The translations under genes and the position numbers were made by a program. Below, piece by piece: positions 7,875 to 13,174 of a DNA stretch of 41,889 bases. The notes below the pieces were generated by a model, which saw only the letters and a program-made list of their open reading frames with translations, did no database searches and was not told the origin of the DNA. The stretch's first letter is position 1; every line of letters begins with the position of its first letter. Origin of the DNA: Oscillospiraceae bacterium (GTDB taxonomy: Bacteria > Bacillota > Clostridia > Oscillospirales > CAG-272); NCBI GenBank assembly GCA_015063645.1, contig SVTS01000016.1:1-41889 (forward strand). Reading direction: 5' to 3'.

Positions 7875-8873
7875 ATGACCACGAATACAACAAATTGTCC
7901 TTGTTGTAATGCAGAGAACGCACAAGTTACAAGAGAAAGCATTCATAAATCATTTGTTGAATGTTCTGTTTGCGGGAGATTTCAATATCATGATTTTTAT
8001 TTCAACGAAAAATCGTGTAAAGATGAATATGCAGCATATTTTTATTATGCTAATAATGAATATCACAATGAGAATTCAAGCTTCTCATATTTTTTTATCG
8101 GAGATAGAGAAGAATATCAAAAAGAATATGCCTTATCTCCAGAATGTCATTATATCACAGAAGATGAAGTAAGGGCTTTTTACCCTAAAAAATTTACAGA
8201 GAAGCTCAACAAGATTCTATGTGAAATTGCACGAAGAACTTCATATCTCGGTGAAGTAATATCTTTTCCCACAGAACAATTAATTAGTGCGTGTTTTATA
8301 AAAAGGTATGATGGAGCAAATAGATTATTAGCTTCTCGGGAGATAGACTACCAACTTAAAAAAACATTGAGATATTTGAATGATAATAATTATATTAAAC
8401 TCGAATATACTTCACAACAAGTCAATATTATGTTGGAACCTGAAGGCTGGAAGCGTGTAGATGAGATCCAGCAATACCAAGAAATAAGTTCAAAGAATGT
8501 TTTTGTCGCTATGTCTTTTGCTCCTGAAATGTACGAAACCCGTGAAACCATCAAAAAAGCTATTACTGAAAACGGTTTAGTACCTCGAATCATGGATGAA
8601 ATTGAACATAACCATCAGATAGTCCCTGAAATGTTATATGAGATACGAAATTCACGGTTTGTTATTGCTGAATTAACAGGGCACAACAATGGAGCATACT
8701 TTGAAGCCGGTTATGCATTGGGAGTTGGAAAAGAGGTAATACAAGTCTGTAACAAGATAAAATTTGGTGAAGACGGTCATTTTGATGTGAAGCAAATCAA
8801 TACTGTTATGTGGGAGAATCAAGAAGACCTCTATTCTCGACTCTGTGCGCGTATTCAAGCTACTATTGGTTAA
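7875..8873 (+). CDS. Zinc-ribbon, helical, deoxyribosyltransferase/TIR-like protein; candidate defence effector
   Basis: 332 aa and clearly more AT-rich than its neighbours, which suggests transfer. Residues 8-33 form a zinc ribbon (CPCC ... CSVC). The middle part has a winged-helix-like stretch (LRYLNDNNYIKLEY ... LEPEGWKRVDEI). The last 120 residues start VFVAMSFAPEMYETRETIKK and contain IAELTGHNNGAYFEAGYALG followed by KEVIQVC. This matches the nucleoside 2-deoxyribosyltransferase/TIR-like fold, where the Glu of the NxGxxFExGYA motif is the expected catalytic residue in NAD- or nucleotide-cleaving relatives. A G-rich ribosome site precedes ATG 7875. The defence role is inferred from fold, base composition, the WYL neighbour and position at an island edge. 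Confidence 0.75.
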   Translation: MTTNTTNCPCCNAENAQVTRESIHKSFVECSVCGRFQYHDFYFNEKSCKDEYAAYFYYANNEYHNENSSFSYFFIGDREEYQKEYALSPECHYITEDEVRAFYPKKFTEKLNKILCEIARRTSYLGEVISFPTEQLISACFIKRYDGANRLLASREIDYQLKKTLRYLNDNNYIKLEYTSQQVNIMLEPEGWKRVDEIQQYQEISSKNVFVAMSFAPEMYETRETIKKAITENGLVPRIMDEIEHNHQIVPEMLYEIRNSRFVIAELTGHNNGAYFEAGYALGVGKEVIQVCNKIKFGEDGHFDVKQINTVMWENQEDLYSRLCARIQATIG

Positions 8874-11522: not shown

Positions 11523-11819
11523 TTATTTCTTTTTTGCCGTAACTTTGTTCAGAACGATGGTAACGCCGATCAGAACGCCGATTACGATGATGATGCAGAG
11601 CATGCCGACGCCCATGTATTTCAGATTCTTGATGAAATTCATGGGTTCAAAGCCGCTGTGCTCTTCGACAGCTTCTTCTTCATCGGAAGCGTCTTCCACT
11701 GCTTCGGCAGCTGCGGCAGCAGTTGTTTCAGCCTCAGCCTCAGCGAATACGGACACGGAGAACAGGGAGAACATCAGAACCAGTGCAAACAGCACGGAAA
11801 GAATTTTTACGTTTTTCAT
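11523..11819 (-). CDS. OadG-like small subunit of a Na+-translocating decarboxylase
   Basis: 98 aa with a signal-like N-terminus (ILSVLFALVLMFSLFSVSVFA), a very acidic Ala/Glu-rich linker of about 30 residues, and a membrane helix (GVGMLCIIIVIGVLIGVTIV) ending LNKVTAKKK. OAD-gamma subunits are small single-helix proteins with a charged, variable region. The helix region NLKYMGVGML and position 15 nt after the beta-subunit gene support that role. The order signal sequence, acidic linker, helix is unusual for the family and gives a two-helix hairpin or a processed exported form. GGAGGGTG precedes the ATG. Confidence 0.65.
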   Translation of the reverse strand: MKNVKILSVLFALVLMFSLFSVSVFAEAEAETTAAAAAEAVEDASDEEEAVEEHSGFEPMNFIKNLKYMGVGMLCIIIVIGVLIGVTIVLNKVTAKKK

Positions 11820-11834
11820 CAGTCACACCCTCCG

Positions 11835-12971
11835 TCACATAAAGAAGCTCAGAATCAGACCGCCGGCAATAACGGATGCGATCTGACCGGATACGTTGAC
11901 GCCGATGGAATGCATCAGCAGGAAGTTCTGGGGATCCTCTGCCAGACCCATCTTATGCACGACACGACCGGACATCGGGAATGCAGAGATACCTGCAGCA
12001 CCGATCATCGGGTTGATCTTCTGCTTGAGGAACAGGTTGAGGAGCTTAGCGAACAGAACGCCGCCGGCAGTATCGAAGATGAATGCAACCAGACCCAGAC
12101 CCAGGATCAGGAGAGTATCCAGCTGGAGGAACTCATCCCATACCATGCGGGTAGCGATGGTGATGCCAAGGAAGATGGTGATCAGGTTAGCCAGCACCTT
12201 CTGTGCAGTCTCGGAGAGAGAATTCAGCACGCCGCACTCACGGAGCAGGTTACCGAACATAAGGAAACCAACCAGAGAAACGGATGCGGGTGCGATCAGA
12301 CCTGCGATCACGGTGATCACGATGGGGAAGAGGATGCGGGTAGTTCTGGTAACTTCAGCCTGCGCATAGGGCATACGGATCATACGCTCTTTCTTGGTGG
12401 TCAGGAGCTTGATTACCGGGGGCTGAATGATCGGAACCAGAGCCATATAGGAGTAAGCGGCAACCATGATGGCGCCCAGATACTTGGAGCCCAGCTTATT
12501 GGCAACGACGATGGAAGTCGGGCCGTCAGCGGCACCGATGATACCGATGGAAGCGGCATCGTTGATATCAAAGAAGATGGAGGCGAGGCACAGGGTAAAG
12601 AAGATACCGAACTGTGCGGCTGCGCCGAAGATCATCAGCTTGGGATTGGAGAGGATCGGACCGAAGTCGATCATCGCACCGATACCGATGAAGAGGATCA
12701 GCGGGAAGAGTTCGTTTGCAATACCGGCGTTGAAGAGCGTGGTGAGCGCGCCTTCCTCTTCGCCGATAATGTTGCCGAGGTTATCGGTAACAAACTGGGT
12801 AATCGCGCCGGAATTCGGCAGGTTTACAAGAATCGCGCCGAAGCCCATGGGAAGCAGGAGCGTAGGCTCCATGTCCTTCTTGATCGCAAGGTAGATCAGC
12901 AGACCGCCGATGATCCACATCACGATCATCTGCCAGTTGATCTGAAGCAGATTTTCGTAGAGAATTTCCAT
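11835..12971 (-). CDS. oadB: Na+-translocating decarboxylase beta subunit
   Basis: 378 aa from ATG 12971 (AGAAAGGG upstream); the 14 extra residues in the ORF track are upstream leader. This is a polytopic membrane protein with the OadB/GcdB/MmdB pattern, starting NLLQINWQMIVMWIIGGLLI and containing GIGAMIDFGPIL, IGIIGAADGPTSIVVANKL and KMGLAEDPQNFLLMHSIGVN. The GAADGPT region with its Asp is the conserved sodium/proton site of the family. These subunits pump Na+ out while freeing CO2 from a biotin carrier. No alpha or biotin-carrier gene is in the window. The symbol is generic; the substrate (oxaloacetate, glutaconyl-CoA or methylmalonyl-CoA) cannot be told. Confidence 0.93.
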   Translation of the reverse strand: MEILYENLLQINWQMIVMWIIGGLLIYLAIKKDMEPTLLLPMGFGAILVNLPNSGAITQFVTDNLGNIIGEEEGALTTLFNAGIANELFPLILFIGIGAMIDFGPILSNPKLMIFGAAAQFGIFFTLCLASIFFDINDAASIGIIGAADGPTSIVVANKLGSKYLGAIMVAAYSYMALVPIIQPPVIKLLTTKKERMIRMPYAQAEVTRTTRILFPIVITVIAGLIAPASVSLVGFLMFGNLLRECGVLNSLSETAQKVLANLITIFLGITIATRMVWDEFLQLDTLLILGLGLVAFIFDTAGGVLFAKLLNLFLKQKINPMIGAAGISAFPMSGRVVHKMGLAEDPQNFLLMHSIGVNVSGQIASVIAGGLILSFFM

Positions 12972-13011: not shown

Positions 13012-13051
13012 AAAAAAAAACCTTTATTACGGGCTTTCGTCGCAATAAAAG
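13012..13051 (-). terminator. Leader terminator before oadB
   Basis: 11-bp hairpin (CTTTTATTGCG / CGTAATAAAGG with G-U pairs) followed by nine T, about 40 nt before the oadB start. The 5' strand overlaps the end of the aptamer-like segment, so ligand binding could switch it. Confidence 0.8.
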
Positions 13052-13137
13052 TCTCGCCGATAAAGCAGTACCGGGCATAAACTGCCGGGATGACGATACT
13101 GCGCGGGAGGGAATCCCGCCGGCTACTCCCTCTTAAA
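13050..13137 (-). promoter_or_regulatory. Riboswitch-like leader, yybP-ykoY-like
   Basis: In minus orientation the leader reads GAGGGAGTAGCC, a GCGGGA/TCCCGC hairpin, a long arm GCAGTA ... TACTGC holding GTCATC and a GGCA/TGCC hairpin, then TATCGGCGAGACTTTTATT. GGGAGTAG near the 5' end, GTCATC in the arm and GGCGAGAC at the 3' end are the hallmarks I associate with the yybP-ykoY (Mn2+) aptamer. AAGAG can pair with CTTTT to close it. The match is by eye; another cation aptamer is possible because the gene is a sodium pump. Confidence 0.5.
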
Positions 13138-13145
13138 TCGGAAAG

Positions 13146-13174
13146 ATTATACCATAAAATGCGCCGATATGCAA
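13146..13174 (-). promoter_or_regulatory. Promoter of the oadB leader
   Basis: Minus strand TTGCAT, 17-nt spacer, TATAAT. It gives a leader of about 165 nt. Confidence 0.75.

Follow-up and report, generated by a model that had tools for sequence, protein, structure and literature searches.

The window, by which we mean the whole 41,889-nucleotide stretch analysed here (contig SVTS01000016.1 of an Oscillospiraceae bacterium), carries on its minus strand a candidate leader that ends in an intrinsic terminator and is followed by oadB and a gene for a small OadG-like membrane protein (Table 1). The first-pass annotation had taken oadB for the beta subunit of a Na+-translocating decarboxylase, and the TIGR01109 and PF03977 matches agree; our tree, however, places it apart from the OadB of decarboxylase operons, in a separate and usually stand-alone subfamily, designated B. 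The leader is preceded by a TATAAT promoter that a promoter scan of the window did not list, because just three of the six positions of its -35 hexamer match. The terminator hairpin is absent from the list of a generic terminator scan with a loop limit of 8, which is consistent with its 9-nt loop.

Table 1. Features of the oadB locus in the window.
Feature	Position	Strand	Basis
-35-like TTGCAT, weak, spacer 17	13169-13174	-	sequence reading
-10 box TATAAT, TG-G ahead (extended -10)	13151-13146	-	sequence reading
Candidate leader region	13140-13012	-	read from sequence; conserved among relatives
Predicted Mn2+-type (yybP-ykoY-like) aptamer	13043..13138	-	covariance model R1 and covariation
P1.1 5' strand UAAGAG	13135-13130	-	sequence reading
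Box GGGAGUAG	13130-13123	-	sequence reading
L1 5' strand GGAGUA	13124..13129	-	kept in 27/27 aligned oadB leaders
Box GUCAUC	13094-13089	-	sequence reading
L3 UCAUCCC, with candidate Mn2+-contacting adenosine 13091	13087..13093	-	aligned with L. lactis UCA41AU43UC (PMC6754395)
Box GGCGAGAC	13058-13051	-	sequence reading
P1.1 3' strand CUUUUA, common to terminator	13046..13051	-	RNA folds; overlap in 31/31 oadB leaders
Intrinsic terminator, 11-bp stem (arms 13051-13041 and 13031-13021), 9-nt loop, nine T (13020-13012)	13012..13051	-	sequence and RNAfold
oadB, subfamily B, Na+-translocating decarboxylase beta subunit (ATG at 12971-12969)	11835..12971	-	TIGR01109 419 bits; PF03977 500 bits; tree; alignment to PDB 6iva
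Small OadG-like membrane protein, 98 aa, TM segment near C-terminus	11523..11819	-	weak OAD_gamma match, under curated cut-off

The leader holds three boxes that had been described as placed as in the yybP-ykoY aptamer, and they do follow one another in that order on the minus strand; the ordered set occurs once in the window, with 0.025 occurrences expected per first-order Markov simulated window. The predicted aptamer is a three-way junction made of P1.1, L1, P1.2, P2, P3.1, L3 and P3.2. After the L1 strand come P1.2 (GCCG), the P2 hairpin, P3.1 (GCAGUAUCG), L3 (UCAUCCC) and P3.2 (GGC...GCC), and the 3' half runs through P3.1' (CGGUACUGC), P1.2' (CGGC), L1' (GAGA) and P1.1' (CUUUUA). The fold of the full leader beats those of all 200 shuffles (z = -3.6) and contains the terminator hairpin in the RNAfold prediction; when the leader is cut before the 3' arm of the terminator, P1 is formed in the predicted fold, which is then the aptamer. 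The overlap of the 3' end with an 11-bp terminator and nine T, claimed earlier, is borne out, the 5' arm of the terminator being the 3' strand of P1. Crystallised Mn2+ riboswitches have four helices, P4 included, whereas the predicted fold of the window leader has no P4 and we read none from the sequence of the leader ahead of mntP in that genome; three related leaders (L062, L067 and L080) have a P4-like hairpin, and P4 is thus variable within the set.

None of the 4227 models of Rfam 15 matched the window at its cut-off, and the Mn2+ model, RF00080, was not listed there even at relaxed thresholds. Taken alone, this RF00080 search, which the first-pass annotation had proposed, would mislead, since the model is insensitive in this bacterial family: it stays below the cut-off in all 59 of the family's genomes searched, while E. 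coli and B. subtilis-type controls do score with the same search. Its sub-threshold matches in the family include leaders ahead of P-type ATPases, and the argument that a silent Rfam means no riboswitch was rejected, RF00080 being equally weak in this family for leaders ahead of mntP and P-type ATPase genes. The current Rfam model misses Mn2+-type riboswitches in this bacterial group. The window leader differs from yybP-ykoY in that RF00080 gives it no score and in its target, a Na+-pump subunit. A match to a family with an unrelated ligand was not found: the sole end-to-end Rfam match to the window leader is SSRC10 (RF02617), at 22.6 bits against a cut-off of 56. The SSRC10 alignment spans the whole length of the oadB leaders and takes in the terminator, and in S. 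pyogenes SSRC10 sits ahead of a gene described as a "putative calcium transporter" (PMC3675131). It differs in being described as a Streptococcus small RNA and in a score far under the cut-off; SSRC10 is probably a misfiled entry that represents a Mn2+ riboswitch leader, ending in its terminator, ahead of a cation transporter gene.

The same leader is present at 31 of 80 loci of the closest OadB proteins, and at one of these 31 (L076) an exchanger gene lies between leader and oadB. A covariance model, R1, was built from 11 other oadB leaders; the window leader was left out of this first model because a simple MAFFT alignment misplaced its P2. R1 recovered the window leader with 69 bits (E 1.3e-15), and it also picks up weak sub-threshold RF00080 matches ahead of P-type ATPases. 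Across the 11 seeds, 96% of cells are paired and 13 of 25 pairs are changed on both sides, against just 34-47% pairing in slid controls; in 97 leaders, whose alignment was fitted to the model, pairing is 94.4% and both-side changes are seen at 23 of the 25 pairs. Covariation in P1, P2 and P3 lies well beyond both shuffles and slid controls, a strong outcome for the comparison of homologous oadB leaders that had been suggested as a check. In all 31 oadB leaders tested, the window's among them, the P1.1 3' strand is a terminator arm. At the level of computation these leaders are homologous, share one structure and one switch overlap, and, as described below, belong to a common regulon. The missing RF00080 match would suit an ordinary terminator with a chance resemblance to an aptamer; the probability of this is negligible, as the seed covariation and the independent recovery of the window by R1 (E 1e-15) refute it, and the conserved switch overlap and the shared regulon argue in the same direction.

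The two loops of the aptamer are the most telling parts for its class. L1 of the window, the internal loop between P1.1 and P1.2, reads GGAGUA / GAGA, in agreement with the GGAGUA / (A or G)AGA pattern of Mn2+ riboswitches; the 5' strand of L1 is kept at 95-100% per position ahead of genes other than oadB, and its presence in every aligned oadB leader is partly the result of selection, as the seeds were picked on GGGAGTA. L3 played no part in that choice, and its CA is present in 27 of 27 aligned oadB and 21 of 21 mntP leaders. L3 of the crystallised Mn2+ switches reads UCA41AU43UC in the L. lactis member and ACA48U49ACU52 in that of X. oryzae, and Mn2+ is contacted by N7 of the invariable L3 adenosine, A41 and A48, respectively (PMC6754395). 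Most oadB leaders have the L. lactis form, G-UCANNNC, and most mntP leaders the X. oryzae form, UCAACAUAC; both forms are seen ahead of P-type ATPases and CaCA exchangers. The L. lactis Mn2+ riboswitch resembles the window leader in its P1.1/L1/P1.2, P2 and P3 elements, its UCANNNC L3 with the invariant adenosine, and a P1.1 strand common to the terminator (PMC6754395, PMC11087558).

A distinct sensor, for example of Na+, had been offered as an alternative. Such a derived yybP-ykoY relative sensing another ion would match the Na+-pump target directly, and Na+-I riboswitches (the DUF1646 motif) are known ahead of oxaloacetate decarboxylase genes, where they act as ON switches via terminator overlap (PMC9337991), as we propose for the window; the prevalence of UCANNNC ahead of oadB and of UCAACAUAC ahead of most mntP genes could be read in its favour as well. 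However, both L3 forms come from crystallised Mn2+ switches, the adenosine responsible for Mn2+ selectivity shows no variation, and the Na+-I riboswitch as published is a two-helix motif that lacks the junction of the window leader. The suggested search with Na+ models was also negative, the Na+-I, Na+-II and Li+ models matching neither the window nor any of 20 leader-bearing loci. The leader class, moreover, stands ahead of manganese exporters, the wrong regulon for a Na+ sensor, and we consider Na+ sensing quite improbable. At 20 loci without the leader no other known riboswitch was seen.

The regulon was read from the genes behind the leader. In the window's own genome R1 found three places, ahead of oadB, mntP and a P-type ATPase. 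Across 146 genomes of the family it found 82 leaders in 63 genomes. When each leader is assigned to whichever of five reference proteins has the nearest match downstream, the first gene encodes a P-type cation ATPase in 26 cases, MntP in 21, a member of CaCA, the Na+/Ca2+-exchanger family, in 14, OadB in 12 and another protein in 9, so that 61 of the 82 leaders stand ahead of a P-type ATPase, MntP or CaCA gene. MntP is a manganese exporter family. These results show that the leader class marks a manganese/cation-export regulon of which oadB is a member. They also indicate that manganese regulons are under-annotated in these bacteria, given the yield of R1 against that of RF00080. P-type ATPases and CaCA exchangers, both frequent targets, also carry Ca2+, which would suit a Mn2+-type switch whose natural ligand is a related metal (Fe2+, Co2+, Cd2+ or Ca2+), as would the binding of Cd2+ to crystals of the L. 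lactis riboswitch (PMC6754395); with MntP among the commonest targets and the published class responding to Mn2+, we regard such a ligand as very unlikely. Among the "other" genes, two encode CitMHS/ArsB-type permeases (L119, L140), and leaders of the Mn2+ type also precede genes for an SPFH/flotillin-like protein (L182) and TetR-like regulators (L112, L160), all of which are possible further members of the manganese regulon.

The OadB proteins of these genomes fall into two clades, split with 100% SH-aLRT. Subfamily A shares 43-52% identity with the window OadB, and its genes adjoin those for a carboxyltransferase, a biotin carrier and OadA in the operons examined; subfamily B, at least 71% identical to the window protein, is mostly followed directly by a short OadG-like gene. 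The leader precedes 40 of 106 subfamily-B and none of 33 subfamily-A proteins, in a B sample partly drawn by likeness to the window protein, and in the remaining 66 B cases no leader was detected. Since the deepest B branches of the midpoint-rooted tree include leader-bearing oadB genes, the leader looks old in subfamily B, with several apparent losses. Compared with the OadABG pump, the window OadB is homologous over its full length and keeps D203, Y229, N373, G377, S382 and R389 in the alignment with 6iva, which we take, from the Klebsiella work, to be residues of Na+ coupling and decarboxylation; an OadG-like partner adjoins, which, unlike that of OadABG, ends soon after its TM segment. No OadA alpha subunit was matched in the window genome, a weak absence in a MAG that is 83% complete, and its PF01039 matches resemble separate AccD and AccA genes. 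That OadB lacks partners everywhere was considered and rejected: an OadA-like gene lies elsewhere, in a separate operon, in 10 of 12 leader-oadB genomes, Erysipelotrichaceae carry subfamily-B oadB inside oadA decarboxylase operons, and full-length OadA is present in 7 of the 13 genomes in which no OadB scored above the B range, an assignment made by score and not by tree. Leaderless subfamily-B oadB genes were also observed behind a biotin carrier gene (L081) and behind a membrane pyrophosphatase gene (L016, L249 and L250; Pfam-checked in L016 only).

Taking into consideration (i) the structure of the leader and (ii) the regulon in which it recurs, we would assign it to the Mn2+ type, as a putative member that lacks P4 and scores under the Rfam cut-off, and we hypothesize that it is an ON switch which places subfamily-B oadB in a manganese-overload regulon, supporting export. 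We give this reading a probability of about 0.8. The idea of a Mn2+-type riboswitch on an unexpected gene, raised in the first-pass annotation, is upheld as far as fold, core letters and regulon go, and by analogy the ligand would be Mn2+ and the direction of control ON. At low Mn2+, the CUUUUA strand would join the terminator hairpin and transcription would halt ahead of oadB. At high Mn2+, L1 and L3 would dock around the ion, contacted by adenosine 13091, and docking would allow P1.1 to form and block the terminator, so that oadB and the small OadG-like gene could be transcribed. The L. lactis switch is a homologous model for Mn2+ docking, P1.1 formation and terminator block (PMC11087558). 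OadB would then stand in a manganese-overload regulon beside mntP and the P-type cation ATPase.

What OadB does there is more conjectural. Most likely, in our view, it supports the export of Mn2+, or of Mn2+ and Ca2+, for example via the Na+ gradient used by Na+/cation exchangers, which fits the L076 operon, where leader, CaCA exchanger and oadB follow in that order. It is possible, though we would put it below even odds, that the switch senses Mn2+ and OadB serves ordinary metabolism instead, for example where Mn2+-dependent carboxylases raise the flux of oxaloacetate; the conserved pump residues, the Erysipelotrichaceae operons and the OadA-like genes found elsewhere in most leader-oadB genomes are consistent with this. 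The other main targets of the leader, however, are all cation exporters, oadB lies behind an exchanger in L076, and one genome that is 95% complete (G119) has leader and oadB without a match to full OadA, carboxyltransferase or biotin carrier. A stand-alone OadB that, with its OadG-like partner and without the alpha subunit, effects Mn2+ efflux directly or by powering Na+-driven export seems unlikely to us. Given the kept pump residues, the subfamily-B oadB genes in Erysipelotrichaceae decarboxylase operons and the one behind a biotin carrier in L081, a special Mn2+ role of the protein itself is a conjecture.

With oadB under a Mn2+-type switch, the likely manganese-overload regulon in a large group of gut Clostridia would gain a Na+-pump subunit, and this offers a testable lead on why a second oadB, apart from the one in the decarboxylase operon, is present in many of their genomes. 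In the literature searched we found no earlier report that links the yybP-ykoY or manganese riboswitch with decarboxylase genes; a passing mention in Dambach 2015 or Price 2015 is possible.

Two minor observations were made along the way. Elsewhere in the window's genome there is a weakly OadB-like fragment that contains an in-frame TAA (G000:C122:12502-12813). In the window, the plus-strand gene at 7875-8873 encodes a protein that is cysteine-rich at its start and nucleoside-deoxyribosyltransferase/TIR-like in its C-terminal part; PADLOC matches it as a TIR effector (E 2e-7), and it is possibly a defence protein.
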